Assembly: GCF_017355875.1 (NCBI RefSeq)
Contig: NZ_JAFEWC010000001.1
Coordinates: forward strand, 1,612,001-1,676,000
DNA from: Aridibaculum aurantiacum
GTDB taxonomy: Bacteria > Bacteroidota > Bacteroidia > Chitinophagales > Chitinophagaceae
DNA length: 64,000 bases
Reading direction: 5' to 3'
Part shown: positions 9,135 through 29,709 of the stretch, one piece after another
Position numbering within the stretch: position 1 is the first letter of the stretch
Layout: each line of letters opens with the position of its first letter
Made by a program: the position numbers and the translations under genes
The notes under the pieces: generated by a model
Database searches by the model: none
Seen by the model: the letters and a program-made list of their open reading frames with translations, nothing else
Told to the model about the DNA's origin: nothing

Positions 9135-9144
9135 TTAATAATCA

Positions 9145-9176: not shown

Positions 9177-9180
9177 GTTT

Positions 9181-9240: not shown

Positions 9241-9245
9241 GGAAA

Positions 9246-9740: not shown

Positions 9741-9823
9741 TTTGCACTGCTTATGCTTCTGTTAACCAATGTATTACGTGGTAAATTTGACTTATTAAAA
9801 TTACAACATAAATACTTTAAAAA

Positions 9824-10630
9824 ATGGCAAAGCAAACAGGTTTAGTGAAGTACTCCGGCACTATGGGTGGAGTAAGGCACTTTAAAATTAAAGGCTTGCA
9901 AGGCGACTTTGCAGGCATGGTTGGTGGACCTTCCGGAGAACAAATAAATACAGCTCCCGAGTTTGAAAGGACAAGGGAAAACATGAATGAATTTGGTGGC
10001 TGTGCCACAGCTGCAAAATCATTACGGGTTGGTCTTAGCCAAATCCTAAAGCAAATGAGTGACCCGCAAATGACTGGTCGCCTTACTGCTGTAATGAAGA
10101 AAATAAATTTGGAAGACGGAACTGAAGCAAGAGGTTATAGAGCTATTTTGATTTCTCAACAAAGGCAGTATTTGAAAGGTTTTGCTTTTGATAAAAGTGT
10201 AAGCCTTGATGGTGTTTTTGTAGCACCTTACACATTCTCAAATACTGTTGCTCGTGACGCTGCAACTCTTACAGTACCAGCTTTCAATCCAGCAAACTTG
10301 ATTAATGCACCAGCCGGTGCAACTCACTTTCGTTTGCTTGTAGCATTAGCTGCTGTTTCTGATTTCGCATACAATGACACTACCGGTGTCTACGAACCAG
10401 TGGATGCAGCAAATAATGAACTTTCAGCCGTTGCTTATTCTGGTTATATTGATTTGTCTGCTCCCGTTTCTACATCAACTGCAGTCACATCAACATTACC
10501 AGGTACACCTACTTTGTCTGCTGATGCAAGTGTTGTGTTTGCAGTAGGTATCGAGTTTTATCAGGCAGTTGGTCCTAATTATTATCTTTTCAATTCAGGC
10601 AATGCCTTAAAGATTGTGGATATTTTCTAA
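9824..10630 (+). CDS. uncharacterised 268-aa protein of a Bacteroidota island family
   Basis: The N-terminus MAKQTGLVKYSGTMGGVRHF and the block EFERTRENMNEFGGCATAAKSLRVG resemble a frequent but uncharacterised Bacteroidota family (my recollection, not checked). The N-terminal half (to about residue 120) is basic and helical. The second half is Ala/Thr/Val-rich with beta-strand patterns (TLTVPAFNPANLI, HFRLLVALAAVSDF, AVAYSGYIDLSAPVSTSTAV). There is no signal peptide, membrane span or known catalytic motif. It is one of only two plus-strand genes in the island and ends at a strong terminator. I assign no function. Confidence 0.75.
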   Translation: MAKQTGLVKYSGTMGGVRHFKIKGLQGDFAGMVGGPSGEQINTAPEFERTRENMNEFGGCATAAKSLRVGLSQILKQMSDPQMTGRLTAVMKKINLEDGTEARGYRAILISQQRQYLKGFAFDKSVSLDGVFVAPYTFSNTVARDAATLTVPAFNPANLINAPAGATHFRLLVALAAVSDFAYNDTTGVYEPVDAANNELSAVAYSGYIDLSAPVSTSTAVTSTLPGTPTLSADASVVFAVGIEFYQAVGPNYYLFNSGNALKIVDIF

Positions 10631-10657
10631 GCGTTAAAGTGAAAACACTCCATTTAC

Positions 10658-10684
10658 AGCCTCGGTTTCTTCCGGGGCTTTTTT
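10658..10684 (+). terminator. Rho-independent terminator of the 268-aa protein gene
   Basis: AGCCTCGG (10658-10665) and CCGGGGCT (10672-10679) form an 8-bp stem with one G-U pair, followed by a T run. Confidence 0.75.
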
Positions 10685-10726
10685 ATGTTCTCTCCTTTCT
10701 TCCCTGTTAAGAGGCGGCTCATAGTG

Positions 10727-10757
10727 CTTTTATCCCTTCCTCATCCTTGCTATGAGC
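10727..10757. ncRNA. 8-bp hairpin upstream of structured element copy 1
   Basis: GCTCATAG (10727-10734) pairs with CTATGAGC (10750-10757). It may be the first stem of the structured RNA that follows, or an independent site. Confidence 0.4.
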
Positions 10758-10802
10758 ATGAAATGACAATATAACTGCGTAGGCAACCAAAAGCAGCACG
10801 GA

Positions 10803-10939
10803 ATAGGCATTTCCAAAAGGAAACGGAATAAATGAAAGCCTTGTGGGTGGGCAATGTGTTTATGCCGTAGTCTTTTGGAAACCCGAAGGGTTCATGCCTA
10901 TGGAGTGGGCTAACTTTGCTTTAGCAGTGAATTGGAAAA
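10803..10939 (+). ncRNA. Conserved structured element, copy 1
   Basis: P1 is ATAGGCAT/ATGCCTAT (10803-10810, 10894-10901). P2 is TTCCAAAAG/CTTTTGGAA (10811-10819, 10872-10880). P3 is ACGGaATAAATG/TGTTTATgCCGT (10823-10834, 10857-10868). A small hairpin ACCC-GAA-GGGT lies between the 3' strands of P2 and P1. Downstream, TAACTTTG (10911), 13 bases and TTGGAAAA (10932) recur with identical spacing in copy 2. Three G-U pairs in P3 and below favour the plus strand as the RNA. It is not a family I recognise, and no protein frame explains the pattern. Confidence 0.7.
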
Positions 10940-11099
10940 GTAATATGCTACTTCTTCATGAAATGTTCCATCACTTTCCAAAGTAATTCCAGCAAAGGAA
11001 TAATGAATGGTAAACACTTGTAAAATAGCTTCCGGTTACGCCGCTTTTTTTTGTTTTTCTTCCTGGACATAATATGCGCTTTAGTGCGGCATCTGTCCT

Positions 11100-12150
11100 A
11101 TATGGAGCGGCGCTCCACAAATGTGTAATTCCTTGCTGAAAGCAGAAAGGACAATGAAACGCACTCCCTTCACTTCAATCCTGGTCGAATGTTCCCTTGC
11201 TTTTTCTTCCTTGTGGGTGGGCAAAAAAGGTAATACAGCCTTGAGCCAAAAGAAGCAGAGCCGTGGCGGGGAGTAACCGCCACTGTAGCCTGGAAGCGTA
11301 GCGTGCCGTGAAAGACACCGTAGAGAGGTACGAACGAAGGTGGCTGCGTGTGCCTGCCGCAGTGGTGGCAAGGAAGCCGTGAAACGGCGATTGACAGCTA
11401 CGTTTTACGCAAGGGTTTGGCGTGTGTTTTTGATTTCCTTCAAGGCTTTGTGTTGTGGGTCAAAAACCATGACAAACACGTAGCTGCGGCAGGCAAGCAA
11501 GGCACGCAAAATTATTGGCAGCGGGTGGACTTTGCTATGCTGAAATGAATGCAGGACGTAGTGTAGCGGTAATGAAACCCAGTGAGTATTGTAGCGCAGG
11601 TTTTGCGAAATGGAATGTGCTTCCCGCCGTGTGTTGGCTTTGTGTTATTGCTGGTGGGAAGCCATGAAATGTAGCATCAGGATAGCTACGAACGTGGTGT
11701 AATGGTAGCGGAACGAAGGACGTAATGAATGAAGCGTAGCGAAAGGACACAAGTAGCTGCCGTGACGAATGCTGTAGGAGCAGCAAGATGTGTGACAAAA
11801 TGCGTAGTGCAACGAAGCACCCGAAGGGCAAAGCAGGTGTGCCAATACCTTAAAGTATATAAATGGCTTTATTGGCACTGCTGCTTTGTTTTGGCGCATA
11901 GCTTGCCGACTAAGCATGAGGAACACCTTATTACCTTGCAGCGTGGGTGTGGTTCAGGGTCTGGGGATTAGGTTCTGTGCGGTGGGAAAAGAAGCCTGGC
12001 AGAAAGCTGACGACGATGAACGAATGAATGTAGTGAAACGAAATGAGTGAGTGAAGAGGTGTGAGCTTGTGCGGTGGGTTTAATGGGTGGGTAAAAGCAT
12101 TTGGCTGCGAAGCATAGATTTTGTGTGCAAGGGCAGCTATATGCTTTGTG
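11100..12150 (+). ncRNA. About 1.1-kb hairpin-dense region, candidate giant structured RNA
   Basis: The region lacks a plausible protein gene but is full of pairings. TGCCTGCCGCAG (11351-11362) is fully complementary to 11484-11495. Inside it nest AGCTACGT (11396-11403 with 11478-11485), GTTTTTGA (11426-11433 with 11460-11467) and hairpin GCCGTgaaACGGC. GTGGCGG/CCGCCAC lies at 11263-11283. GCTTCCCGCC (11619-11628) pairs with 11653-11662 through one G-U. CAAAGCAG plus GTGCCAATA (11829-11847) pairs with 11870-11888 as a 17-bp interrupted stem. The plus strand is rich in G and A, and the G-U favours that strand. The limits are approximate. It could also hold the element's origin. Confidence 0.6.
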
Positions 12151-12177
12151 TGGCAGTTGCTTTGTTATCTTTAAAAT

Positions 12178-12321
12178 GTGATAAAACAGTTAATCAAATT
12201 ATACAGGCAGTTCTTTGATGTGCCCGACTACATCAGGGATGGAGTTGTATTGTTCAGGTTAATGGTTTTTGTTGTTATGTCGCTATTAATAGGTATTCAG
12301 ATTGGTTATTATCTTTTCTAA
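12178..12321 (+). CDS. 47-aa small membrane protein, unknown function
   Basis: Read from a GTG at 12178, the frame gives MIKQLIKLYRQFFDVPDYIR and then a hydrophobic helix (LMVFVVMSLLIGIQIGYYLF). An amphipathic start followed by one membrane span is a common small-protein layout. It lies at the 3' edge of the structured region, before the convergent porin gene. I recognise no family. The start codon is uncertain. Confidence 0.45.
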   Translation: MIKQLIKLYRQFFDVPDYIRDGVVLFRLMVFVVMSLLIGIQIGYYLF

Positions 12322-12339
12322 TTGTTGCTTAATGGTTTG

Positions 12340-12400
12340 CTGTACAAGTGAGTGACACAACGATGATGCTATGAAATACTTCTGCCGGTTACATAAAAAA
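12340..12400 (-). repeat. Dispersed intergenic repeat, copy C (inside the island)
   Basis: Minus-strand reading TTTTTATGTAACCGGC, a divergent centre, then CATCGTTGTGTCACTCACTT and GTACAG. Its ends match the chromosomal copy at 6206-6264. It sits directly behind the porin gene. Confidence 0.55.
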
Positions 12401-12403
12401 GAA

Positions 12404-13630
12404 CTAAAAATAGGTTGATAGTCCAAATTGTATCGCTCCTATTCTTGATGGTGGATTACCTAATAAATCTCTTTGCTTGCTGTATTTGTAGTTAAATCTG
12501 AATACTGTTTGTGGTGTTGGTCGCCAAGAAAAACCTGCTGCTATTGCTTCAACGTTATCTGTTATGTTTCCTCCGGTTGATTTAAATGTTCCTTTGTTCC
12601 AATCTACGTGTTCTAATCTTACACTTACATTGAATACAGATTTGTCAAAACCTAATAATGGCTTCTTGTAAACAGGTTGAACTATGTCTATAAACCCACC
12701 ATGTTGTTTCCTTCCGAATTGTTCTGTATATGTATCAGGAATGTCTACTCGTACCATTGCATACTCTGCATTTATGTAAGTATTTAAACGTGGAATTGTT
12801 GTATTAAAATCTACTGCATACACATCTACTCTTCGCTTCTTATCGAGCACTAATCCGTCTTCCTGAAACTTGTTATAAATGCCTCCCATGTATGATAAAC
12901 CTATCTCTCCAATCTTCCGGTTTCTTAAAGCAAACTTGCCTGTAAATAACATCGTACCATTAAAACTTTCTTCAAACCTATCGGGGTTATTTTTAGTAGC
13001 GGGTAAGAATGTTTTGTTTTCCGGATTGTCTATAATGCTCTCATCGAAACCGTTGCTTAGATATGCTTCATAAGCATACACCCAATCGCTTGTATACTTC
13101 TTGCCGTACAAACCAAAACCTACGTTGCTGAATGTTGCCGGTAACATTTGGGTTGCTGATATTGGTCTGTCTACAAATTCCCATTTAGGTCCATCGTGGT
13201 TTTGATTGAATGCTCCTATTGGGTTCATGATTATACCACCTCTGAAGTTCAGTAATGGTGCTATCTCTAAATCAACTGATGCAAACTCAATATTGATTTC
13301 TTTGGCTCCGTCTTCAAACTCTATTTCTGTTAAGAACTTTAATCGTTTGTAGATTGTTGATGATACAAATAATGTTAGTCTTCTGAATTTGAATTGGTGT
13401 CCTTCTGTTACTCCATTTTCTCCTACGTACTGGTAATTGCCTTCAACATACCCACCTAATGAAACCGGTAATTTGCCCGGTTGTATAAAGGGACGGTCAT
13501 AAACTGCATCCATGTTGAGTTTAAGACTACCCGTATCATCGGTAGTTGACCGTAGTAGTTCAGGGTCTATTTGTGCTGTTGAAGTGTAGGTTATAAAGCA
13601 GAGTAGAAATAGTATGTTGAGTTTCTTCAT
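12404..13630 (-). CDS. outer-membrane porin, OprO/OprP-like
   Basis: A 408-aa protein with signal peptide MKKLNILFLLCFITYTSTAQ. It is then rich in alternating aromatic/polar beta strands typical of phosphate-selective-porin-like barrels (SLGGYVEGNYQYVGENGVTE, FKFRRLTLFVSSTIYKRL, FRFNYKYSKQRDLL) and ends in an aromatic residue (LSTYF). The substrate is unknown. Its ATG overlaps the stop of the Rieske gene by four bases, so porin, Rieske and di-haem genes form one operon. Confidence 0.75.
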   Translation of the reverse strand: MKKLNILFLLCFITYTSTAQIDPELLRSTTDDTGSLKLNMDAVYDRPFIQPGKLPVSLGGYVEGNYQYVGENGVTEGHQFKFRRLTLFVSSTIYKRLKFLTEIEFEDGAKEINIEFASVDLEIAPLLNFRGGIIMNPIGAFNQNHDGPKWEFVDRPISATQMLPATFSNVGFGLYGKKYTSDWVYAYEAYLSNGFDESIIDNPENKTFLPATKNNPDRFEESFNGTMLFTGKFALRNRKIGEIGLSYMGGIYNKFQEDGLVLDKKRRVDVYAVDFNTTIPRLNTYINAEYAMVRVDIPDTYTEQFGRKQHGGFIDIVQPVYKKPLLGFDKSVFNVSVRLEHVDWNKGTFKSTGGNITDNVEAIAAGFSWRPTPQTVFRFNYKYSKQRDLLGNPPSRIGAIQFGLSTYF

Positions 13631-14076
13631 GATTGCTTTCTTAAATCAATAAATATTTCTTTGTCGTTTACAGTAACCGGAAACGTTCTAAGGTTTGTAC
13701 TTGCAGGACCATTAGTAACTTGTCCTTTGTTGTTAAACTCACTGCCATGTGCCGGGCATTGCAAGTAATCGCCTGATGCCTGTAATTCTGCTCCCTGGTG
13801 AGCACACTTCATCCATAAGGCGGAGTATTGCTTTTCATTGAAACGATAGACACAAATAGGGTACTTTAAAGCATCGTTACGAATAATGAGAAATGACCTG
13901 TAAGCTGTATTGCCTTTGTCTTTGATAATAAAATCTTCGGTAGTAAGTGTAAGACCGTCTTTACCGAGTGTGCCCGTTGTATTAACCAATGCTGAACAAC
14001 TGCTTAGTATTGTTGGTATAGCTGCCATTGATAAACAGGCAGCACAACTGTTCTTAATAAAATCTCTTCTCTTCAT
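13627..14076 (-). CDS. Tat-exported Rieske [2Fe-2S] protein
   Basis: A 149-aa protein. The N-terminus MKRRDFIKNSCAACLS is a twin-arginine signal, and LSSC is a lipobox, so it should be folded before export and anchored by lipid. The cluster ligands are CAH (CAHQG) and CPAH (CPAHGSEF), giving the two Cys and two His of a Rieske centre. It lacks a partner cytochrome b or a molybdenum subunit nearby. It lies between a di-haem oxidoreductase and a porin, so electron transfer with the di-haem protein in the periplasm is the natural guess. Confidence 0.85.
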   Translation of the reverse strand: MKRRDFIKNSCAACLSMAAIPTILSSCSALVNTTGTLGKDGLTLTTEDFIIKDKGNTAYRSFLIIRNDALKYPICVYRFNEKQYSALWMKCAHQGAELQASGDYLQCPAHGSEFNNKGQVTNGPASTNLRTFPVTVNDKEIFIDLRKQS

Positions 14077-14089
14077 GGTTTAATGCTGC

Positions 14090-15289
14090 TTATAGTGATT
14101 TAAGGAACTTTATCAATTGGTCTTTTTGTGTTGCATTTAACTGGTCGAAACGTTGTTTGCTTTTCAATGCTTCACCTCCATGCAATGCAATAGCTTGTTC
14201 TATGCTTCTTGCCCTCCCATCGTGCATTAAGAATAATTGTCCGCCTTGTGAATTTTGAGATAAGCCTAAGCCCCATAAAGCCGGTGTTCGCCATTCTGCC
14301 GGTAGTGCTGTACCTTCTGTATAGCCATCATTAAGAGCTGAACCCATATCGTGGAGTAGCATATCAGTGAAGGGGGAAAAAGTTTTATTAGATAGCGCAG
14401 CTATTTGATGGTTGCCTGTTTGCATCTCGGGAGTGTGGCACTTGCCACAACTAATATTTATAAAGTGCTGTCTGCCTGCCTGAACATCGGGGTCGTTCTG
14501 ATTTCTTTGTATTGGTGCTTTTAGTGTTTGCAAATAAAATACTACATCCTGTACGGTCTGATTGGAAACTTCGGGGTCTGCATCTTGTCCATTGTAGGTG
14601 CTGAAGTGTTCATAGGTGGAGTTAATACCCATGTCCTGGTTGTAGGCATTTACTGTTTGTTGCAGCAGGTCGTAGACCGCTGACTTTTTACCAAATCTTC
14701 CAATGTACTTGCCATTACGTGATATAGAGCCGGGGCGAAGTAAAGAATACTGGGGAACTGTAATCCAAGTAGGACGACCTGAAATGCCGTCTCCATCAGC
14801 ATCGTTTTCATCTGCTAAGGCTAATAGTGTTGCATCGGAAACGGCTTCAAAGAAGCCTAAACCTGTGTTTGCAGGTGGGGTAAAGCTGGATGAGGTAGCA
14901 CCCGCCGGTATTTGTTCTGCCTGAAAGCCAATTATAGAACGGTGCTGTAATTGTGGACCTCCAAGGTGCAGGAAGTTGTTTCCTAAAGTGTCGCTTTGTC
15001 CAAACCTTGTAAGTGTTGTAAAGGGATGTCCTTTGCCGTCACCGGCATGACAACTGCCGCAGGAGTTGTTGACGAATAAAGGACCTAAGCCGTTTGCCTG
15101 GTTAAAGATTTCATCATTAAATGCTACATCACCTCTTAGGAACATCCTGTTTTGCTCTGATGTTAAGCCTTCAATCGGACCATCTAAGATTTCATCGTCT
15201 TTAGGTAGTTTGGGTAAAATCTTAGAGCATGAAATGTAAGCGAAAACAAAGGCTGCAAGGGATGCTACAATAAGTAATTGTCTTCTCAT
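14090..15289 (-). CDS. di-haem oxidoreductase family lipoprotein (DUF1111/DHOR)
   Basis: A 399-aa protein with lipoprotein signal (FAYISC) and two c-type haem motifs, NSCGSCH near residue 76 and ISCGKCH near 280. Conserved DHOR blocks include RFGQSDTLGNNF, GRPTWITV and LLHDMGSALNDGY. The family is related to MauG/di-haem cytochrome c peroxidases. The substrate is unknown. It is the first gene of the trio. A palindrome overlapping its promoter suggests metal-dependent control. Confidence 0.85.
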   Translation of the reverse strand: MRRQLLIVASLAAFVFAYISCSKILPKLPKDDEILDGPIEGLTSEQNRMFLRGDVAFNDEIFNQANGLGPLFVNNSCGSCHAGDGKGHPFTTLTRFGQSDTLGNNFLHLGGPQLQHRSIIGFQAEQIPAGATSSSFTPPANTGLGFFEAVSDATLLALADENDADGDGISGRPTWITVPQYSLLRPGSISRNGKYIGRFGKKSAVYDLLQQTVNAYNQDMGINSTYEHFSTYNGQDADPEVSNQTVQDVVFYLQTLKAPIQRNQNDPDVQAGRQHFINISCGKCHTPEMQTGNHQIAALSNKTFSPFTDMLLHDMGSALNDGYTEGTALPAEWRTPALWGLGLSQNSQGGQLFLMHDGRARSIEQAIALHGGEALKSKQRFDQLNATQKDQLIKFLKSL

Positions 15290-15311
15290 TTTCAGGAGCT
15301 TTAAATATATT

Positions 15312-15352
15312 TTTAGACGAGCCTAAATTTATTGTTAGGTAAATATATCAAA
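15312..15352 (-). promoter_or_regulatory. Candidate promoter with a DtxR/MntR-like palindrome
   Basis: On the minus strand TTTG (15352-15349), 17 bases and TAAATTTA (15331-15324) resemble a promoter with a slightly short spacer. Overlapping it is TTTAGACGAGCCTAAA on the plus strand (15312-15327), symmetric at 12 of 16 positions. Its TTTAG/CTAAA half-sites resemble those of DtxR-family metal regulators. The regulator is not in this window. Confidence 0.45.
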
Positions 15353-15410
15353 GTTTAACCTGAAATAGAAGCAGATTTTGGAAAAAAGGAGCAAACTGAA
15401 GAAAAGAGAA

Positions 15411-17390
15411 CTACACTTTTATTTTCTGGATGCGAACAGCATTCAGGATGGCTAACAGTGCTACTCCTACATCTGCAATTACTGCTTCCCACAGGGTGGC
15501 AACGCCACCGGCTCCTAAAATAAGTACAATGATTTTTACAACCATTGCTAAGATGATGTTCTGCCAAACAATGTTTCTTGTAATCTTTCCTATTTTGATT
15601 GCTGATACAATTTTTGAAGGCTGGTCGTTCTGAATTACTATGTCTGCTGTTTCTATTGTTGCATCACTTCCTAAACCTCCCATTGCTATGCCTGCATCTG
15701 CTAAAGCAACTACCGGTGCATCGTTCACTCCATCACCTGCGAATGCTATTCGCCTTCCTTCGTTCTTTAGTTGTTGTACTTTTTCTACTTTGCCTTCGGG
15801 TAGTAAGTCGCCAAATGCTTTATCTATTCCAATGCTCTTTGCCACCTGATTGACCACACTTTGCTTGTCGCCCGAAAGCATCACGGTTTGGATATTCAGT
15901 TTATGCATTTCTTCAATTGCCTGCTTTGCATCTTCTTTAACTTCATCTGCTATTGTAATGTAACCTGCATAAGCATTGTTTACTGCTACTACTACTATTG
16001 TATTAACTTCCTGTTCTAACTCTTCAGGATAATTAATACCGAACTTCTTTAACAGCTTTAAATTACCTGCTAATACTTCCTTGCCTTCGACACTACCTTT
16101 TAAACCATGACCTGATATTTCTTCAACACCTTCTACTTTTACATTGTCTTTTGCAGTACCTGCATATTCTGTTACTGCTTTAGCAATTGGATGTGTTGAG
16201 TTTTGTTCTAATGCTGAAGTGAGTTTTACAAGTTCCTCTTTGCTTATGTTGTTTGGTACTACCTGTTGAACTTTAAAAACACCTTTGGTTAGTGTTCCTG
16301 TTTTATCCATCACTACGGTATTAATCTTAGTCATCACATCTAAGAAGTTGCCACCTTTAAAGAGTATTCCATTTCTTGATGCTAAACCAATTCCTCCAAA
16401 ATATCCTAATGGTATCGACACTACTAATGCACATGGACAACTGATAACTAAGAATACTAATGCTCTATAAAACCATGTTGTAAATACATAATCATCTACA
16501 ATCAAATAAGGAACTAAACATACTGCAAGTGCTAAGAAAAATACTATTGGTGTATACACTTTAGCAAACCTTGAAATAAACAATTGTGTCTGTGATTTTC
16601 TTGCTGTTGCATCCTGCACCATTTCTAAAATCTTACTTAGCTTACTATCTTTGAATAGTGCGGTTACTTTTACCTCTGATACTGTATTTAAGTTTATCAT
16701 TCCTGCATAGATAGCTTCGCCCTTGTATTTTGTATCTGGTTTACTTTCTCCTGTTAATGCGGCTGTGTTGAATGATGCATTTTCAGATAATAGTTCTCCA
16801 TCTAAGGCAACTTTTTCTCCTGGCTTTACCTGTATGCTTTCACCTAATTCAATTGCTGATGGATTTATAACTGTAGCCTGTCCATTTCTTAATACTGTTA
16901 CTTCATCAGGTCTTATGTCTAATAATGCCTTTATATTCTTCTTTGCATTATTTACTGCGGCATCCTGAAACCATTCGCCTATCTGGTAGAATACCATTAC
17001 GGCAACACCTTCTTCATACTCTCCGATTATAAATGCACCAATTGTTGCCACACTCATTAATACAAACTCGTTGAAGAAGTCGCCACGTTTTGATTTGCGG
17101 AACGCCAAGTTTAATACACTTCTGCCTGCAAGGATGTAAGCTATAAGGTTGATGATTAATGATGGAATATTAGGCAACTCTATATGAAAGCCATACTCTA
17201 ATACAAGCAATACGATGAGTATTGCTAAAGCTAACAACAAGTCCCAATGCGCTTTCCATCCTGGCTCTTCTGCTCCATGATTGTGACCATCATCAGCAGA
17301 ATGCTGATGTTCTTCGTTTTTGTCTGTTATCTTTTCAAGCTGGTCTAACTGTAAGTCTTTAGCTTGTTCGTTGTTATGATTGTGTTCCAT
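15411..17390 (-). CDS. heavy-metal-translocating P-type ATPase (Zn/Cd/Pb type)
   Basis: A 659-aa inner-membrane pump that exports divalent metal. The N-terminus is His-rich (MEHNHNNEQ, EEHQHSADDGHNHG) rather than a CxxC domain. The core motifs are complete: LTGES, transmembrane CPC (SCPCALVV), DKTGTLTKG, HP (STHPIAKAV) and GDGVNDAPV. The frame extends to 17432, but the ATG at 17390 avoids overlapping the upstream gene and begins the His-rich tail. CPC plus the czc neighbours favour Zn/Cd/Co over copper. It is the last gene of the efflux run. Confidence 0.9.
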   Translation of the reverse strand: MEHNHNNEQAKDLQLDQLEKITDKNEEHQHSADDGHNHGAEEPGWKAHWDLLLALAILIVLLVLEYGFHIELPNIPSLIINLIAYILAGRSVLNLAFRKSKRGDFFNEFVLMSVATIGAFIIGEYEEGVAVMVFYQIGEWFQDAAVNNAKKNIKALLDIRPDEVTVLRNGQATVINPSAIELGESIQVKPGEKVALDGELLSENASFNTAALTGESKPDTKYKGEAIYAGMINLNTVSEVKVTALFKDSKLSKILEMVQDATARKSQTQLFISRFAKVYTPIVFFLALAVCLVPYLIVDDYVFTTWFYRALVFLVISCPCALVVSIPLGYFGGIGLASRNGILFKGGNFLDVMTKINTVVMDKTGTLTKGVFKVQQVVPNNISKEELVKLTSALEQNSTHPIAKAVTEYAGTAKDNVKVEGVEEISGHGLKGSVEGKEVLAGNLKLLKKFGINYPEELEQEVNTIVVVAVNNAYAGYITIADEVKEDAKQAIEEMHKLNIQTVMLSGDKQSVVNQVAKSIGIDKAFGDLLPEGKVEKVQQLKNEGRRIAFAGDGVNDAPVVALADAGIAMGGLGSDATIETADIVIQNDQPSKIVSAIKIGKITRNIVWQNIILAMVVKIIVLILGAGGVATLWEAVIADVGVALLAILNAVRIQKIKV

Positions 17391-17397
17391 AAATAAA

Positions 17398-18012
17398 TTA
17401 TTGTATAAAAAATGAAATGATACCAGTAGCAACTAAAGTCACTCCTGTTATTATACCTGCATTGTGTTCTATTGAATGCCAATTCAATTTTAGTAAGCCC
17501 TTGTAAGCGTAGCGAACAAGCAGCATCATGCCTGTTGTTGTAATTACTAAATACATAAGGGCAATAAGCACTACAAGCCACCCGGCTTGTGTGCCTGCTA
17601 ATAGAAAATATGCTTCAATCTCCATACATGGAGAAAGGAACATTGCTATTGTCAAAGCTGTTATTATTGCTTTTTTAGACTTCTTTCTTTTTAATTCACT
17701 ATCTACATGAAAATGCTTGTGCCTGTGATGCCGGTAAATGAATATTAAGCCTATAGATATAAGTATAACAGGAGCTATTATGTTTGTGAAGTGGGTTACT
17801 CTATCATCGAGCTTAGCACCTAATACACCTAACAAGACACCGATAAGGATTGTACTTACGCCATGTGCTAAAGCACAAATCAGTGTAACTTTTGTAACCT
17901 CTTGTATTGACCAATGCTCTTTCCTCCCTATAGCAATTACAGGCAACCAATGATTAGGTATTACTGCATGAAGCAAACTGATTATTAAAGCACCTGTAAT
18001 TATTGAAATCAT
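17398..18012 (-). CDS. NicO/RcnA-like membrane metal exporter (putative)
   Basis: A 204-aa protein with about six hydrophobic spans. The first carries HAVIPNHWLPVIAI and the third ALAHGVSTILIG; such His-in-helix signatures are seen in nickel/cobalt transporters of the NicO/RcnA/HupE type. A His-rich loop (YRHHRHKHFHVD) follows. Its position between metal efflux genes supports metal export. The exact family is uncertain; sulfite exporter-like or urease-accessory-like permeases are alternatives. It overlaps the methyltransferase gene by four bases. Confidence 0.6.
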   Translation of the reverse strand: MISIITGALIISLLHAVIPNHWLPVIAIGRKEHWSIQEVTKVTLICALAHGVSTILIGVLLGVLGAKLDDRVTHFTNIIAPVILISIGLIFIYRHHRHKHFHVDSELKRKKSKKAIITALTIAMFLSPCMEIEAYFLLAGTQAGWLVVLIALMYLVITTTGMMLLVRYAYKGLLKLNWHSIEHNAGIITGVTLVATGIISFFIQ

Positions 18013-18611
18013 AATAGTCTTCTTACTGTTCTTTTGTATTCGGTATAAACTGTGCCATGTTGTTTTATTAAGAACTCTTCTTCCAATCGTATTTGAATTT
18101 GTATGACGATGTAAGATGTAGCAGCTACAAAGAATGTAACTGTATCAGGAATGATTAAAAAGATACCTATGGTGCTAAGTATCATTCCTAAAAAAATAGG
18201 GTTACGTGATAAGCTGAAAAAACCATTTGTTATCAATTCTGTTCTGTTCTTTTCATCTATACCTATTCTCCAGGATTGCTTCATGTGGTATTGTGCAATT
18301 ACTATCCAGATAAGTGAAGCATGAATAATGAATAAGCCTGTGTATTGCAACCAATCTTTTTGAAGAAATGGAATTGGATTTAGGTATATATATGTGTTTG
18401 CAGATAAAGAGAATAACAGGACTGCTATAACAAGCAGCCCTGTTAACACTTTCATTATTGTTCCTATGTAATCATGTGCATTATCACTTTTACCGAAGGT
18501 TACAGGATTAATGCCTGTCTTCTTATAAACTCTTATACTTGGCAGAACGAAAGTGATAAGTAGGTACACAAGTAAGAAAAGCGGCAGATAGTATTTTAGG
18601 TATTGTAACAT
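18009..18611 (-). CDS. isoprenylcysteine/phospholipid methyltransferase-like membrane protein
   Basis: A 200-aa protein with four to five membrane spans and the C-terminal ICMT/PEMT signature: NGFFSLSRNPIFLGMILSTI followed by RLEEEFLIKQHGTVYTEY. Such proteins bind S-adenosylmethionine at the membrane. The family is often found inside czc-type operons, where its role is unknown. It is translationally coupled to the NicO-like gene and starts 9 bases after czcB. Confidence 0.75.
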   Translation of the reverse strand: MLQYLKYYLPLFLLVYLLITFVLPSIRVYKKTGINPVTFGKSDNAHDYIGTIMKVLTGLLVIAVLLFSLSANTYIYLNPIPFLQKDWLQYTGLFIIHASLIWIVIAQYHMKQSWRIGIDEKNRTELITNGFFSLSRNPIFLGMILSTIGIFLIIPDTVTFFVAATSYIVIQIQIRLEEEFLIKQHGTVYTEYKRTVRRLL

Positions 18612-18620
18612 AGAAATAGT

Positions 18621-19859
18621 TTAGTGTTCGTGTCCTCCTGTATTTGTCATTTTGGCTAAGGCAAAGAATGCGCCTTTAGTAATAATCTTTGTTTGTGGTG
18701 GAAGGTCTTTTAATAGTTTGACCTCGGTATACCCTACGTCTGTTGCGCCCTTAATAACTGCTATTCTTTCAAAATTTGTTGTTGCATGACTTTCACCTTC
18801 TTTATGTCCTGCCTCTTTTTCTTCATGACCTTCTTCCTTTTCGCCTTCCTCATGATGTTCTTCTTCTGCCGTTGTTAATACAAAAATGTAATCCTGTCCT
18901 TGTGAGTTTACAATTGCCTCTGTTGGTACAGCAGGAACAACGTTAGTGCCTATACTTATTACTGCGGTTATATTCATGCCTTCAATCAATCCTGTTTTAT
19001 CACCCATCACCACTGCATGAATTGGAACTGTTTTCGTTTCATTTGCAAAGGCTGTACCTATCGAATATATCTGTGCATCATACTCTTTGCCTGGATTGTT
19101 AGTTAAGGTGAAATGTATTGTTTGGTTTGCATGAAGCCTTGGCAAGTCTTTCTCAAAAACAAATAAGTCGAGGTGCAACCTTGAATTGTTTACTATTTCT
19201 GCAAGAGGTGTTGAAGGGTCTACATTGGAACCAATTTGAGCAATTACATTGCTTACTGTGCCACTTATAGGGGCTGTAATGGTAAGGGTAGTAATAATGT
19301 TTCCTCTACCTACACTGCTTGCAGATATACCCATTGCACTCAACTGCTTTTGCAGCGAATTTCTGGTTACCCTTAGCGTTGCCAATTCTGTTTGTACTCT
19401 TTGTACATTCTTCAATGGTGCTGCATCACCAGCTACCAGTTCTCTTTGCCTTTTATATTCAATTTCTGCAAGGCTAATTTGTGCATTTACTGTCTGTAAT
19501 TGTTGTTGCAGGTTAGCAACATCAGGATTTACAATTGTAGCTACAACCTGTCCTTTCTTTACGTATTTGCCGGGATGGATAAGCAATGTTTTTATCACTC
19601 CACTGTTAACAGATGTAATGAAAGCCTTGTTCTCATTTGGAACAGATAACATACCATTTGCCTTGATTGATGTTTGCAGGTTTTTAAGCTCAATTGTACC
19701 TAATTGTATACCTGCTGTTTTTATCTGTTCTTCAGTAAGAGAAACAATGGTGCCTGGTGCTTCTTCGTGGTGCTCTTCTTCCTTTACTGTTTCCGTCTTC
19801 TTGTTACCACAAGAGGCAAGCAGGTTTAGGATGGTTATTATTAAAAATAATTTCTTCAT
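18621..19859 (-). CDS. czcB: RND efflux periplasmic adaptor (CzcB-like), lipoprotein
   Basis: A 412-aa membrane-fusion protein linking the RND pump to the outer-membrane channel. It has lipobox LLASC, paired lipoyl-like half-motifs (GVIKTLLIHPGKYVKKGQVV and APISGTVSNVIAQIGSNVD) and a central coiled-coil hairpin (QQQLQTVNAQISLAEIEYKR). A His/Glu-rich insert near residues 335-360 (EEEHHEEGEKEEGHEEKEAG) could buffer metal. It starts 5 bases after the pump gene. Confidence 0.9.
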   Translation of the reverse strand: MKKLFLIITILNLLASCGNKKTETVKEEEHHEEAPGTIVSLTEEQIKTAGIQLGTIELKNLQTSIKANGMLSVPNENKAFITSVNSGVIKTLLIHPGKYVKKGQVVATIVNPDVANLQQQLQTVNAQISLAEIEYKRQRELVAGDAAPLKNVQRVQTELATLRVTRNSLQKQLSAMGISASSVGRGNIITTLTITAPISGTVSNVIAQIGSNVDPSTPLAEIVNNSRLHLDLFVFEKDLPRLHANQTIHFTLTNNPGKEYDAQIYSIGTAFANETKTVPIHAVVMGDKTGLIEGMNITAVISIGTNVVPAVPTEAIVNSQGQDYIFVLTTAEEEHHEEGEKEEGHEEKEAGHKEGESHATTNFERIAVIKGATDVGYTEVKLLKDLPPQTKIITKGAFFALAKMTNTGGHEH

Positions 19860-19864
19860 TTCAG

Positions 19865-22800
19865 TTATTTATTTAAATAGAAGTTTAGTTGTATTGCTGA
19901 TTGGTTGTACTGGTTTAGTACCTCCAAATAGTTTCTCTGAATGTCTATTGCTTGTGTTAGGTATTGTGTTAGTTCAGCGAAATTTATTTCGCCTCCACGA
20001 TAAGCAAGGTTTGATGACTTTATGATTTTTTCAGCCTGTGCAAGTCCTGTGCTTTCATAGTATGTAAGCAGTTCCAAATCTTTTTGAAGCTGTATGTACG
20101 CCTGGCTGTAGTTTGTTCTTAATGCTTGCCTTTCGTAATCAAGTATACTTTGCTGGTAGCTTCGTTCTAACTCCGCTGCTCTTACTCTATTCTTATATGT
20201 TTTAGAAGCAAAAAGTGGAATACCTACACTAACTGAAAAACCTGAAAAGGGATTAGACAAACCGTACAACCTTTGAGAAAAAAACCTTCCTTCAAAGTTT
20301 GGTTTTCGGTTCTGCTGTTGAACATTCAATTCTGCCTGTGCAATAGAAATGTTTTGTTGCTGTAATTGTAATTGAGGATGTGTATTAAAAGTCGTATCTA
20401 AAAAATCTACCTGTATTCTTTGAACTGTTGTGGTATCAGGCAGGTAAATGCCTGTAGTATTAAGAACCCTTTTTAAGACTTCCTGCTGTGTTTGAATATC
20501 TCTTTGTAACAGGCTTAGTTGTACCGTTGTTTCTCTTGCCCTTGCCATTGCAGAAAGGCTGTCAAGCCCTGCACTCTCACCTGTCTTAACCCTTAGCACT
20601 GCTGCTTTAGCTAATGATGTGTAAATGCTATCTAATCTTTGCCAAAGAAGCTGCTTGCTCTGCAAGTACCACAAGTTGTAATAGGTCGCCTGCAATTCTC
20701 TTCTAATTTCTAATGCTCTTATCTGTTTTGAGATTTCAACTGACTTTACCTGTTCCTGCAACAAGTTCCTTCTTGCCCTGTATACGGATGGCAGTTCAAT
20801 GCTTTGTGATAAGCCTATTTTAAGAATGCCTTTCGGGTCTTGTGGGTTAATGTCTTCGTTCTCTATGAAAGCTCCTGTTCTTGGGATGTCAAGCCATGTG
20901 CCCTGCAATGTTCTGCTGCGCTGTATTTGCAAATCACTTGCTCTTATCTGAAGGTTATTTCTTAACGCTGTATCAAATGCAGCATTGAATGAAATACGAT
21001 TGGCTGCACCCGGACTTTGAGCAAATATTGATTGAGAAATAAAGACTGCTAAAAGTAGTGTTACCACTTTTGGTAACGTTGTATTTAATTTCATCTTTGG
21101 TTTTGTAAAGAGGATATATAGTATAGGTATAACAACTAAGGTGAGTAGTGTAGCCGTTACTAAGCCACCGATTACTACGGTAGCCAATGGTCTTTGTACT
21201 TCTGCACCTGCACCTGATGAAATAGCCATCGGCAAAAAACCTAATGAAGCAACTGCTGCTGTCATCAATACGGGTCTAAGCCTGATTTTTGTTCCTTCTT
21301 TTACTCTTGCTATTATATCATCCCATCCTTCTTTTTCTAACTGGTTGAATGTTCCTATAAGTACTATACCATTTAAAACTGCTACACCAAACAATGCAAT
21401 AAAACCTACACCTGCTGAAATGCTAAAAGGCATACCTCTAAGCAGTAGTGCAAACACACCACCTATTGCCGACATTGGTATAGCTGTAAAGATTAGTGTT
21501 GCCTGTTTTGCAGAATGGAATGTGAAGTAAAGCAGAATGAAAATTAATAGCAGTGCCGCAGGTACTGCAATCTGCAATCTTGCAGATGCTTTCTCTAAGT
21601 TTTCAAATGTTCCACCATAAGTAAAGTAATAACCGGCAGGCAGTTTGAATGTGCTTAGTTTGGCTTGTATGTCTTTTACTACTGATTGTACATCCCTGTC
21701 TTTTACATTAAAGCCTACTACAACTCTTCGCTTAGCATCTTCACGACTAATTTGTGCAGGACCTTCTTTGAACTCAACAGAAGCAACTTGGTTTAAAGGG
21801 ATTTGATTACCTCCCGTTGTTGGTATGTATAAGTTGGCAACATCTTCAATTGATGAACGATAGGTTGTATCAAGTCTTACTACTAAATCAAACTTTCTTT
21901 CGTTCTCAAAAACAACTCCTGCTGCCTGACCTGCAAAGGCTGTACTCACTACCTTATTTATGTCTTCTATGTTTAAACCGTAGTTTGCAATCCTGCTTCT
22001 ATCGTATGTAATGGTTATTTGAGGTAAGCCTTCAATTCTTTCGATTTGTGGTTCTGTTGCTCCTTCCACTGATTGAATTACTTTGCCTATTCTTGGTGCT
22101 AAAGCAGCTAATGTATCTATGTTCTCCCCAAATATTTTAATAGCTACATCTTGCCGTACACCTGTCATCAATTCATTAAAACGCATTTGAATTGGTTGGT
22201 TGGCTTCAAAGAAAATACCTGGTATTGCTTCCAGTTTCTCTAACATCATTTCAGCTAATTCCTTGTAATCTTCGGTTGTTGTCCATTCGTCTTTGTCTTT
22301 AAGAACAATGATTAAATCACTTGCTTCAGGTGGCATCGGGTCTGTTGGTACTTCTGCACTTCCTGTTCTGCCAATTACTTCTTTTACTTCAGGAAATGCT
22401 TTTATTATTCTTGATGCCTGCATTGATGTTTCAATACTCTGGGACAATGAAGAGCCCTGGGGTAAGATGCAGTGAAAGGCATAATCGCCTTCTTCTAATT
22501 GTGGTATGAACTCACCACCCATACGGGTGAAAATGACAATAGAAATGATAGTTAGAACGGCTGCAGCCGTGATAACAATGTACTTCATTCTGATAGCTGC
22601 ATTTAGAACCGGAGCATATAACTTCTGAAAGAAGTTTATCATTCTATCTGAAAAGGTGACCTTATGACTTATCTTCTTCGATAAGAAGGCGGCTGAAATC
22701 ATTGGTATGTATGTAAGCGAAAGAATTAATGCACCTAAGATGGCAAAGCCTACAGTCTGCGCCATTGGTCTGAACATCTTGCCTTCAATGCCTACGAGGG

Positions 22801-24190
22801 TTAGTATTGGTATATAAACTATAAGGATAATGATTTCACCGAATGCTGCACTGCTTCTTATTCTGGATGCTGATTGATATACTTCTTCATCCATTTCTTT
22901 TTGAGTAAGTACTTTATTTGATTTTCTTGTAGCTAAGTGGTGCAGGGTTGCTTCAACAATGATTACTGCACCGTCTACTATTAAACCAAAATCAATAGCG
23001 CCTAAGCTCATCAGGTTTGCTGATACTCCAAATACATTCATCAATCCTAAAGCAAATAGTAAGGCTAATGGAATAGCTGAAGCAACAATTAACCCTGCCC
23101 TTAGATTTCCTAAAAACAGTACTAATACAAATATTACAATCAATGCCCCTTCAACAAGGTTGGTTTCAACTGTTGATATTGCCCGGCTTACAAGTGAGGT
23201 TCTATCTAAGTAAGGTTCTATTAGTACATCAGGTGGAAGTGACTTTTTTATAACTTCCATTCTTTCTTTTACACGGGCTACTACTTCTGCACTGTTGCTA
23301 CCTTTTAGCATCATAACAATACCACCTACAACCTCGCTTTCACCGTTTCTTGTCATTGCTCCATAACGTGTAGCATGACCAAAACGAACATCAGCAACAT
23401 TGCTTATCATGGTAGGGATGCCGTTTGTATTCTTGACAACTATTCGCCCTATGTCTTCCAAAGAAGTAACTAAACCAATGCCTCTTATGAAATAAGCATT
23501 TGGCTTTTTGTCTATGTATGCACCGCCTGTATTGGCATTGTTCTTCTCAAGTGCTTCAAAAATTTCTGCAACACTTACATTTAATGCTTTTAACCTGTTG
23601 GGGTCTACAGCTACTTCATACTGTTTCAACATTCCGCCGAAGCTGTTAACTTCTGCTACTCCGGGTGTTCCGTAAAGCTGCCTTGCAACTATCCAGTCCT
23701 GCATTGTTCTTAGGTCGCTGGAAGTATACTTGTGTTCACTGCCCTTTTTAGGATGTAAGACGTATTCAAATATCTGCCCTAATCCTGTGCTTACTGGTGC
23801 TAACTCCGGCTTGCCTAAACCTTCAGGTATCTGGTCTTCGGCTTCCTTTAGTCTTTCATTTATAAGTTGCCGTGCAAAGTATATGTCTACATCATCGCTA
23901 AAAACAACGGTGATTACTGAAAGACCAAACCTTGAAATAGAACGAACTTCTTCAAGGTCGGGAAGGTTGGCAATACTTTGCTCTATGGGGTAGGTAATAA
24001 ATTGCTCTACCTCCTGGCTTGCCAAGGTTGGAGCATTGGTAATTATCTGAACCTGATTATTTGTAATATCCGGCACTGCATCTATCGGCAGTTTTGTTGC
24101 ACTCCATACACCCCATGCAATGAGGGCTATTGTCATTACGCCAATGACAAGTTTGTTTTTTATACTGAACAGTATAATCTTATCTAACAT
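19865..24190 (-). CDS. czcA: CzcA-type heavy-metal RND pump fused to a TolC/CzcC-like channel
   Basis: A 1441-aa fusion. Residues 1 to about 1035 are a complete HME-RND transporter with the CzcA proton/metal signature DFGLIVDGAVIIVE in TM4, which points to Zn/Co/Cd/Ni rather than Cu/Ag. Residues from about 1059 form an outer-membrane efflux protein with long coiled-coil repeats. The joint contains a signal-peptide-like stretch, VVTLLLAVFISQSIFAQ, ending at residue 1058. The precursor may thus be cut so that pump and channel reach different membranes. No stop or frameshift lies at the joint. Similar fusions exist in other Bacteroidota. Confidence 0.92.
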   Translation of the reverse strand: MLDKIILFSIKNKLVIGVMTIALIAWGVWSATKLPIDAVPDITNNQVQIITNAPTLASQEVEQFITYPIEQSIANLPDLEEVRSISRFGLSVITVVFSDDVDIYFARQLINERLKEAEDQIPEGLGKPELAPVSTGLGQIFEYVLHPKKGSEHKYTSSDLRTMQDWIVARQLYGTPGVAEVNSFGGMLKQYEVAVDPNRLKALNVSVAEIFEALEKNNANTGGAYIDKKPNAYFIRGIGLVTSLEDIGRIVVKNTNGIPTMISNVADVRFGHATRYGAMTRNGESEVVGGIVMMLKGSNSAEVVARVKERMEVIKKSLPPDVLIEPYLDRTSLVSRAISTVETNLVEGALIVIFVLVLFLGNLRAGLIVASAIPLALLFALGLMNVFGVSANLMSLGAIDFGLIVDGAVIIVEATLHHLATRKSNKVLTQKEMDEEVYQSASRIRSSAAFGEIIILIVYIPILTLVGIEGKMFRPMAQTVGFAILGALILSLTYIPMISAAFLSKKISHKVTFSDRMINFFQKLYAPVLNAAIRMKYIVITAAAVLTIISIVIFTRMGGEFIPQLEEGDYAFHCILPQGSSLSQSIETSMQASRIIKAFPEVKEVIGRTGSAEVPTDPMPPEASDLIIVLKDKDEWTTTEDYKELAEMMLEKLEAIPGIFFEANQPIQMRFNELMTGVRQDVAIKIFGENIDTLAALAPRIGKVIQSVEGATEPQIERIEGLPQITITYDRSRIANYGLNIEDINKVVSTAFAGQAAGVVFENERKFDLVVRLDTTYRSSIEDVANLYIPTTGGNQIPLNQVASVEFKEGPAQISREDAKRRVVVGFNVKDRDVQSVVKDIQAKLSTFKLPAGYYFTYGGTFENLEKASARLQIAVPAALLLIFILLYFTFHSAKQATLIFTAIPMSAIGGVFALLLRGMPFSISAGVGFIALFGVAVLNGIVLIGTFNQLEKEGWDDIIARVKEGTKIRLRPVLMTAAVASLGFLPMAISSGAGAEVQRPLATVVIGGLVTATLLTLVVIPILYILFTKPKMKLNTTLPKVVTLLLAVFISQSIFAQSPGAANRISFNAAFDTALRNNLQIRASDLQIQRSRTLQGTWLDIPRTGAFIENEDINPQDPKGILKIGLSQSIELPSVYRARRNLLQEQVKSVEISKQIRALEIRRELQATYYNLWYLQSKQLLWQRLDSIYTSLAKAAVLRVKTGESAGLDSLSAMARARETTVQLSLLQRDIQTQQEVLKRVLNTTGIYLPDTTTVQRIQVDFLDTTFNTHPQLQLQQQNISIAQAELNVQQQNRKPNFEGRFFSQRLYGLSNPFSGFSVSVGIPLFASKTYKNRVRAAELERSYQQSILDYERQALRTNYSQAYIQLQKDLELLTYYESTGLAQAEKIIKSSNLAYRGGEINFAELTQYLTQAIDIQRNYLEVLNQYNQSAIQLNFYLNK

Positions 24191-24271
24191 TATATAACCT
24201 TTCTAAACGTGAAATAATACACGCCTAAACAGCCGAACAGGCTGAAAAGCATTCTGGTAAAAATGAGAAGG

Positions 24272-24589
24272 TTATACTAAGCGGGGGGGCTGCCAAATAG
24301 GTAAGACAATTTCTATGACTTCCTTTGGAAGGAAACTTGTCTCGTGACTTTGAGAGTAGGTAGGTACTTTAGTTACAATTGCAAGAGTATGGTTAATTGA
24401 GAAACCTGCACAGCAGGCACAATGACAAAAAGGAGAGCAAGCATCCTCTTCCTGATGGTCTGGCTGGTCTGCCGTCTTCGTTATTTCTGTCTTTGCTTTT
24501 GGGTCTTTAGGGGCAGCACCGGTATCAGCACAAGGCATGACGCTAAGTGCTAAGACAAGAAAAGCCATTATGAAAGCAAAGAATTTCAT
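24272..24589 (-). CDS. DUF6660-like small Cys/His protein leading the czc operon
   Basis: A 105-aa protein from the ATG at 24589. It has a hydrophobic signal (MKFFAFIMAFLVLALSVMPC) and a cysteine cluster DACSPFCHCACCAGF. This resembles the DUF6660 family, which I recall at the head of Bacteroidota czc operons. It is likely periplasmic and metal-binding, though its role is unknown. The frame is open to 24790, but upstream codons have no signal-like character and overlie a promoter. Confidence 0.7.
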   Translation of the reverse strand: MKFFAFIMAFLVLALSVMPCADTGAAPKDPKAKTEITKTADQPDHQEEDACSPFCHCACCAGFSINHTLAIVTKVPTYSQSHETSFLPKEVIEIVLPIWQPPRLV

Positions 24590-24595
24590 CGGGTG

Positions 24596-24628
24596 CAAAG
24601 GTAACGCTCCTGAACAATTAAAGACAAA
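24596..24628 (-). promoter_or_regulatory. Promoter of the metal efflux operon
   Basis: On the minus strand TTTG (24628-24625), 21 bases, then TACCTTTG (24603-24596). The mRNA would begin close to the start codon at 24589, suggesting a very short leader. Confidence 0.55.
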
Positions 24629-24667
24629 TGAATATTTGTAGCGTTGTTGCAAGGGGTTTCTGAAATT

Positions 24668-24691
24668 AAAAAAGCCCCCTAAAAAGGGAGC
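24668..24691 (-). terminator. Terminator facing the metal operon
   Basis: On the minus strand GCTCCCT-TTTT-AGGGGGC (one G-U pair) is followed by six T. It would end transcripts coming from the Argonaute side before the czc promoter. Confidence 0.65.
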
Positions 24692-24907
24692 TGTGAAAGA
24701 TAACAACGATGCTGACGAACCAGTTGGTGCAAGTACATGCCTGAAGCCGGCAAATGAAACACACGAACATAAGTGCGACGGTGCTGCCAATGAAAGGAAT
24801 AATGAGGCGGTGTAGTAAGGCTAAGTGAGTAAGCATAACCGATGAAACGTGCAGACTTGGACATAACGTAAATTTTAAATGATGAAAATAAAATGACGCT
24901 ATGCCTA
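24692..24907 (+). ncRNA. G/A-rich non-coding stretch next to element copy 2
   Basis: No convincing gene lies here. The plus strand has the same G/A-rich, hairpin-prone character as 11100-12150 (for example GCCGGC and short GAA-loop hairpins). It may be part of the same RNA as the element that follows. No long perfect stem was found. Confidence 0.3.
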
Positions 24908-25071
24908 AATTGCCGTCATTCCCAAGCCAAAAGGAAACGGAATAAATGAAGGCTTCTGTGTGTGGAATTGTGTTTATGCCGTAGTCTTTTGGCTGTCCGG
25001 CTCTGGCTTAGTTTGGATTTATGCAACTGCCGGGACGGCAATTAACTTTGTGGAAGATTTTATTTGGAAAA
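24908..25071 (+). ncRNA. Conserved structured element, copy 2
   Basis: P1 is AATTGCCGTC/GACGGCAATT (24908-24917, 25034-25043), unrelated in sequence to P1 of copy 1 but perfectly paired. P2 is AGCCAAAAG/CTTTTGGCT (24925-24933, 24986-24994). Its two outer pairs differ from copy 1 by compensatory changes (TT/AA to AG/CT). P3 and its 52-base hairpin interval are almost identical to copy 1. TAACTTTG (25043), 13 bases and TTGGAAAA (25064) follow as in copy 1. Transcripts of the minus-strand Argonaute unit would run antisense through it. Confidence 0.7.
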
Positions 25072-25108
25072 CTCGTACTCGATAGCTGGTATACTTTTAG
25101 GTTGGAGC

Positions 25109-25687
25109 TTATTCCTGCCTTACTAAAGTACCTTCCACTTCGTTAGTACAGCTATTGTAAATGTCAATAGGGGCAAGGTTAGCGTATACTATTTTTAACG
25201 TTTTTTCATCTAACATTTCAAAGGAACGAGCATTATTCATTTTTTCAATTGTATTGAGATAGCACTTAGTAGAATACTTGTTCACAATACTGAAGTTCGC
25301 ATCTAAAAGAATAAACCTCGGTTCGCCGCTTCTTCGTGTATCGATAATAGAAATATTTTCAGGAATGCTATACTCTGCCCAGTTTTCATTTTGGTGTTCA
25401 TCATGCTTGTTTATTGACGAAAATATATTTCTATAGCAATGTGATGCACCTGGATTTAAAATATATTCATAGCCTTCAACCTCACCCTTCAATCTATAGC
25501 CATCACCTTCGGTTGTTCTTTGCCACATCATTATTCCACCTTCATCATGAGACGGACCTAAAATTAGACCTCCTTTAGTGCCATTAATTGCCCAGCCTTT
25601 GGCAACATAGTCTTCCATTGTTGGAAGTGAAAAAAACATATCATAGAAATACATGTGACAGCTATAAATTGAGGTTATGAAAATCAA
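25109..25687 (-). CDS. putative lipoprotein downstream of the Argonaute, unknown function
   Basis: A 192-aa protein starting 10 bases after the Argonaute stop, apparently from TTG at 25687. The first residues MIFITSIYSC look like a short lipoprotein signal with lipobox IYSC; the frame stays open upstream into the Argonaute gene, so a longer signal is possible. The rest is soluble, with tryptophan- and glycine-containing beta patterns (GWAINGTKGGLILGPSHDEG, MMWQRTTEGDGYRLKGEVEG). I recognise no domain. Tight spacing suggests co-expression with the Argonaute, but a surface lipoprotein is an odd partner for a cytoplasmic nucleic-acid binder. Confidence 0.6.
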   Translation of the reverse strand: MIFITSIYSCHMYFYDMFFSLPTMEDYVAKGWAINGTKGGLILGPSHDEGGIMMWQRTTEGDGYRLKGEVEGYEYILNPGASHCYRNIFSSINKHDEHQNENWAEYSIPENISIIDTRRSGEPRFILLDANFSIVNKYSTKCYLNTIEKMNNARSFEMLDEKTLKIVYANLAPIDIYNSCTNEVEGTLVRQE

Positions 25688-25697
25688 AACAATTGTT

Positions 25698-29707: not shown

Positions 29708-29709
29708 TG

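Follow-up and report, generated by a model that had tools for sequence, protein, structure and literature searches.

A covarying hairpin family of Bacteroidota mobile elements as a probable single-stranded-DNA promoter

Introduction

What is the hairpin that occurs twice, about 14 kb apart, in the window (the whole 64,000-nt stretch of Aridibaculum aurantiacum DNA analysed here), and does it work as RNA or as DNA? A preliminary description of the window took it for a structured RNA with compensatory base changes, giving folded DNA in brackets as an alternative. The evidence below makes it probable that the element is a single-stranded-DNA promoter, which would switch on protective genes as a mobile element enters a new cell.

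Single-strand promoters have been sought elsewhere. A survey of leading regions (PMC11541004) describes, in its relevant passages, a search for new ones with TTGACA/TATAAT boxes, and PMC12826799 searched using known Frpo sequences; the string 'bacteroid' is absent from the main texts of both. Among the matches listed in our literature search, whose scope lay outside preprints and most subscription journals, no description of a Bacteroidota single-strand promoter was found.

Results

Two copies of one hairpin

We found that the two copies have a common core of 66 nt with 83% identity, and that the genome carries four copies of the element. The parts of the two window copies are as follows.

10774..10928, plus strand: copy 1, whole hairpin (DNA fold)
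10774-10778 and 10781-10786 / 10916-10921 and 10924-10928, plus strand: copy 1, outer stem P0 (DNA fold)
10803-10810/10894-10901, plus strand: copy 1, P1, ATAGGCAT/ATGCCTAT, 8 bp (fold)
10812-10820/10871-10879, plus strand: copy 1, P2 (fold; family core 10812..10879)
10823-10826/10865-10868 and 10828-10833/10858-10863, plus strand: copy 1, P3 with A.G mismatch and internal loop (fold; family core)
10874..10877, plus strand: copy 1, TTTG in the 3' strand of P2, proposed -33 box (sequence)
10911..10918, plus strand: copy 1, TAACTTTG, proposed -7 box between P1 and P0 (sequence and fold)
24886..25065, plus strand: copy 2, whole hairpin (RNA and DNA folds)
24886-24894/25057-25065, plus strand: copy 2, P0 (RNA and DNA folds)
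24908-24917/25034-25043, plus strand: copy 2, P1, AATTGCCGTC/GACGGCAATT, 10 bp (fold)
24997-25001/25029-25033, plus strand: copy 2, side hairpin (fold; within the P1 span 24908..25043)
24925-24934/24985-24994, plus strand: copy 2, P2 (fold; core 24925..24994)
24937-24940/24979-24982 and 24942-24947/24972-24977, plus strand: copy 2, P3 (fold)
24988..24991, plus strand: copy 2, TTTG in P2, proposed -33 box (sequence)
25043..25050, plus strand: copy 2, TAACTTTG, proposed -7 box (sequence and fold)

The sequence and pairing first described for these copies are real: the P1 stems are unrelated in sequence yet perfectly paired (8 and 10 bp), and the outer pairs of P2 are TT/AA in one copy versus AG/CT in the other. 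Folding with more flank gave one long hairpin, in the order P0, loop, P1, P2, internal loop, P3 and tip. The limits originally drawn (10803-10939 and 24908-25071) contain the core, but the element reaches further out, to P0, whose 5' arm in copy 2 paired with other bases in a wider DNA fold. P3 holds one A.G mismatch. The tip is variable and takes up insertions, such as the long hairpin of L016 and the repeat found in loci L013 and L027. The motif TAACTTTG-N13-TTGGAAAA noted downstream of the hairpins is present in both window copies (TAACTTTG starting at 10911 and 25043) and its TAACTTTG part lies inside the P0-bounded element, between P1 and P0, but N13-TTGGAAAA is not a feature of the family, since TAHHTTTG-N10-16-TTGGAAAA occurs in 2 of the 108 elements described below.

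A family across one class of Bacteroidota

An exact 22-mer of the core was found in 24 genome contig stretches, and 23 of these 24 have the hairpin core, far beyond chance. The match in L024 (SAR324) was set aside as an unrelated coding match without the core. A covariance model built from the core and run as the preliminary description had proposed found further homologues with covarying stems, at 142 places in 66 of 244 genomes and in 42 of the 101 genera of Chitinophagaceae, the taxonomic family of the window. With a broader covariance model, 34/395 genomes of the phylum were matched, of which 25 lie outside this family and all in the same class. The working set within the family comprised 108 distinct elements from 60 stretches, and the outside set 24 elements from 20 stretches.

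In line with the earlier remark that no family of this layout was known to its author, no Rfam family matched the hairpins at threshold. At the gathering threshold, the window and five further loci gave no Rfam match except tRNA (one tRNA in the window), and a permissive search with copy 1 only gave three weak minus-strand matches, all outside the core. A blastn search of two elements against a plasmid collection gave no match.

Covariation and the strand that folds

Among 38 diverse cores, we found both-sided changes in 73 cells versus a shuffled mean of 22.2, 92.3% paired cells versus 42-48% in slid versions, and a covariation score of 0.310 versus 0.048-0.109 in slid versions; further pair types did not exceed the shuffles (19 versus 17.7; 141/500 shuffles). 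The covariation strongly supports the earlier claim of selection on a folded strand. The plus strand was the more stable one in 98/108 elements with DNA parameters (minus strand in 9/108), in 84/108 with RNA parameters (minus strand in 23/108) and in all 24 elements outside the family.

The plus strand had first been chosen on the basis of three G-U pairs. That the plus strand folds better was borne out, but the G-U argument fails across the family: the core stems contain 7 G-U versus 11 A-C among 646 cells, so that G-U makes up about 1.2% of pairs. Like the structured RNAs of Rfam, the element has covarying stems; unlike them, it does not retain G-U pairs on the RNA strand. Longer folds contained 14 GT and 8 AC single mismatches, and 141 A.G versus 8 C.T, the A.G excess being largely the conserved P3 mismatch. 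With stems that are nearly purely Watson-Crick, and a strand preference due mainly to A.G mismatches, the element looks more like folded DNA than RNA.

A non-coding RNA of the plus strand, ending near the TAnnTTTG box, was the reading of the first description. It would agree with the better folding of the plus strand and with the slight lean of single mismatches toward GT. Against it, G-U does not exceed A-C in the core stems, the plus strand has few upstream boxes (TAHHTTTG occurs 5 times in the 400 nt to the left of 104 elements), and neither the orientation of the genes nor that of the relaxase, given below, would be explained; such an RNA is very unlikely.

Proposed promoter boxes and their helical spacing

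The main sigma factor of Bacteroidota recognizes TTTG at -33 and TAnnTTTG at -7, according to the relevant passages of PMC7366714 and PMC6847099; the second narrows the -7 box to TAHHTTTG, the -33 box being much less evident there. In the 85 nt 3' of the core, a strict TAnnTTTG was present in 56/108 elements versus 3.9% of 2018 random windows, and a looser -7 box in 90/108 versus 10.1%; several of the variants are GAnnTTTG, and 18/108 elements were without even the loose box. At the mirrored position, a possible site for an ordinary promoter driving the left gene, the strict box occurred in 0/108 and the loose box in 2/108 elements. In 104 elements, TAHHTTTG occurred 52 times on the plus strand 0-49 nt right of the core, and on the minus strand never within 100 nt of it. 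At the P2 anchor, TTG is found in 94/100 elements, kept although the surrounding P2 pairs change.

The helical distance between the -7 box and the P2 anchor next to TTG was taken in the 80 elements where the fold allowed it, and was 19-21 in 62 of them (median 20). The linear distance from anchor to box ranged from 8 to 93, and its best 3-nt bin held only 20/80. In a diverse subset, the helical distance was 19-21 in 20/27 versus 8/27 for the best linear bin. The window copies have linear distances of 34 (copy 1) and 52 (copy 2) and helical distances of 22 and 20, respectively. Outside the family, the predicted helical path was 18-22 in 9/19 elements and the linear path fell in one 3-nt bin in 13/19; hence, folding need not create the spacing there. 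The arrangement typical of Frpo, a hairpin with both boxes at promoter spacing, is thus present within the family when the Bacteroidota consensus is used, and weaker outside it.

Genes beginning beside the element

We found a minus-strand ATG ORF of at least 70 aa starting 30-250 nt left of 84/105 elements (median 126 aa), versus 14/106 on the mirrored side (median 30 aa); the other 21/105 were without a left ORF of 70 aa. Outside the family, a left ORF was present in 21/24 versus 6/24 on the mirrored side. Minus-strand ORFs of at least 70 aa also end 30-250 nt right of 51/106 elements, as gene arrays would give, which is expected under other readings too.

When left ORFs were assigned by BLAST to ten reference families drawn from the same set and named after Pfam, 82/108 were placed: DUF6943 (22), a small protein ending in -LPF (18), RadC (17), SSB (10), DUF6876 (7), GIY-YIG (4), and one each of DUF932, DUF6934, PRTRC_E and ParB. 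At several loci the leftward order is element-SSB-DUF932-element-RadC. SSB genes are frequent in plasmid leading regions, according to the relevant part of PMC11541004, from whose main text RadC is absent; no mention of DUF6943, DUF6876 or DUF6266 was found in the literature searched. DUF6943 was linked to HsdS by fold search alone, with no match at E 0.001 or better, and sequence profiles gave no link.

Beside the window copies, two minus-strand genes are relevant.

24679..24864, minus strand: 61-aa ORF ending in -QLPF, starting 56 nt left of the copy 2 core, proposed promoter target
9246..9740, minus strand: Staphylococcal-nuclease-like gene (PF00565), the next larger minus-strand gene left of copy 1

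The 61-aa ORF matched neither Pfam nor a reference family. Copy 1 has no minus-strand ATG ORF longer than 22 aa starting 30-250 nt to its left.

Small proteins of this kind lie by other elements too (L009 5539-5769 and relatives), and their tail is like the -DLPF of the SSBs at sister elements. In total 32/108 left ORFs, SSBs included, end in -LPF; eight aligned small proteins were themselves selected by that ending. The small protein has no Pfam match and its AlphaFold model is poor (pLDDT 57). Perhaps these proteins bind the partners of the SSB tip.

Many elements (45) have a member of a plus-strand protein family of about 250-268 aa on their left (9824-10630 in the window). Its initial identification as DUF6266 was dropped because Pfam gave no match, and for the same reason it is treated here only as a conserved neighbour. 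At L017, a 570-aa gene (1735-3447) starts right of the element, the left gene being a DUF6943 relative; the start of the 570-aa protein presumably resembles SIR2-type proteins.

Since minus-strand genes begin just left of a structured, covarying element, we considered a 5' leader RNA of these genes, riboswitch-like or protein-regulated, with its promoter right of the element. The minus strand, which would be the transcribed leader, is the better folder in few elements under either parameter set, lacks TAHHTTTG near the core, and has the same scarcity of G-U; the helical place of the plus-strand box would also be left unexplained. Hence, a leader RNA is highly unlikely.

The gene-element-gene arrays in one orientation and the strand-specific hairpin could also suggest a recombination hairpin, for example an integron attC or a transposon end. 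Integron attC sites carry complementary R boxes on both arms, with AAC/GTT. By eye, the 5' side of the loop opposite TAAC of the conserved 3' box is variable and not complementary to it. Moreover, the genes on either side of the element diverge in L010, L011 and L017, so that elements do not simply follow genes, and a recombination hairpin would leave the kept promoter box and helical distance unexplained; its probability is very small.

Relaxase orientation

We searched 58 of the 66 genomes with the element for a PF03432 relaxase, and 46/58 have one. A relaxase lies within 40 kb of 63/142 elements, on the opposite strand in 63/63 and on the 5' side in 54/63; the other 79/142, which include the elements of the 8 genomes outside the search, have none within that distance. 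Counted per contig, the relaxase is on the opposite strand in 47/47, on the 5' side in 40/47 and on the 3' side in 7/47. In control pairs more than 100 kb apart, the opposite strand was found in 17/34. Outside the family, pairs judged by eye had the opposite strand in 14/15 (one on the same strand), the 5' side in 11/15 and the 3' side in 4/15. Adjacent elements were on the same strand in 32/32 pairs.

According to the relevant passages of PMC11541004, relaxosome genes are typically found close to oriT, on its lagging side. This puts the elements on the leading side, with the plus strand as the one that would be transferred. With the relaxase as the marker of oriT and the lagging side, the element lies, as Frpo does, in a leading region with genes directed toward oriT. 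The window's own island is without a relaxase, and no PF03432 relaxase was found in its genome at E 1e-5. Together with the lack of an ORF at copy 1, this may reflect mobilisation of the window copies in trans, another relaxase type, or decay of these copies into relics.

The RNA reading was taken first; the G-U count, with the orientations of genes and relaxase, then ranked it below DNA. Folded single-stranded DNA fits the element better than structured RNA because the -7 box stands at a fixed helical distance, genes start on the opposite strand and G-U is almost absent. Of the original interpretation, the folded strand and the bracketed alternative of folded DNA stand, and 'structured RNA' is not the best reading.

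A proposed promoter in the transferred strand

We propose that, during conjugation, the T-strand that reaches the recipient is the plus strand, which folds there into the hairpin. Folding would place the P2 TTG (-33) about 20 bp from the TAnnTTTG (-7) between P1 and P0, so that RNA polymerase with the Bacteroidota sigma-A could bind the folded boxes and start in P0. The polymerase would then run leftwards along the single strand into the adjacent minus-strand gene (SSB, RadC, DUF932, DUF6943 or others), and this expression would precede second-strand synthesis, which the transcript could also prime. With a loop next to it, the -7 box might resemble a promoter already opened, and the A/T-rich part of P3 would occupy roughly the position of an UP element. 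In double-stranded DNA the promoter would be off, since the boxes of most family copies are then mis-spaced and point away from the gene. Together, these facts fit a promoter confined to the folded T-strand and directed at the neighbouring gene, like Frpo of E. coli plasmids.

Transcription from Frpo/ssi runs toward oriT. The relevant passages of PMC11541004 describe Frpo/ssi, on F-like and IncI plasmids, as likewise a folded T-strand with promoter boxes in the leading region, with an SSB gene among its targets and several copies per element. Its boxes are TTGACA/TATAAT, in another phylum, versus TTG/TAnnTTTG in the Bacteroidota element; unlike Frpo/ssi, the latter has a sequence-conserved P3 and internal loop, with side hairpins and bulges of varied length. 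The EGeRS of pLS20 plasmids are also foldable sequences ahead of establishment genes, as the relevant part of PMC8708921 reports; they are much longer than ssDNA promoters, and such a role for them is disputed there from the nicked strand. In the Bacteroidota element, unlike EGeRS, the relaxase orientation fits an ssDNA promoter.

The same logic of a folded T-strand would apply to a single-strand initiation site, for second-strand priming or another DNA-processing step, that serves chiefly DNA conversion rather than gene expression. In genome G194, two elements about 1 kb away from a relaxase are without a left ORF longer than 53 aa, and Frpo also serves primer RNA synthesis (Masai and Arai 1997, by its title as cited in PMC11541004). 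However, most elements directly precede a gene start, and several loci have separate elements ahead of separate genes or operons; DNA conversion as the main job is thus a slight possibility at best.

Beyond the promoter itself, we favour with moderate confidence a broader view: that a family of ssDNA promoters for the Bacteroidota sigma-A, class-wide or wider and with a box spacing that arises only on folding, drives conjugative establishment islands that include undescribed counter-defence genes, with DUF6943 as half of an HsdS specificity subunit and the tiny basic proteins that carry the SSB-tip ending -LPF. If this is true, the covariance model would mark leading regions across one of the major bacterial groups of gut and soil, the transferred strand could be read from sequence alone, and the elements would point to the genes that each mobile element uses first against host defence. 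It would also open to test the way in which a DNA hairpin is read by a sigma factor that lacks a TATAAT box.

The island and its other features

Both window copies lie in an integrated island.

9087..33895, strand not assigned: integrated island with a 48-nt tRNA 3'-end repeat at both ends
32423-33679: tyrosine recombinase of the island

The island contains HTH_17 genes, BT4734-like_N and DUF3987 proteins, an Argonaute and metal-efflux genes. The cargo between the copies (12404-24190) includes an AcrB-type protein fused to an outer membrane efflux domain, an HlyD-type protein, an E1-E2 ATPase, a di-haem oxidoreductase and a Rieske protein. Next to the prokaryotic Argonaute (25698-27764; PADLOC pAgo, E 1.8e-263) is a 192-aa gene without a match (25109-25687), its end lying just right of copy 2.

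A conserved region of about 750-950 nt with no credible long ORF lies at 11207-12154. It has no match in Rfam and has 71-80% identity at the main matches in 11 other loci. In 10 sequences, both-sided changes were found in 40/126 predicted pairs; G-U made up 6.3% versus 1.0% A-C of cells in the plus fold, and 5.5% versus 0.5% in the best minus fold, whose energy was weaker than that of the plus fold. Perhaps this region is a large non-coding RNA, on either strand.
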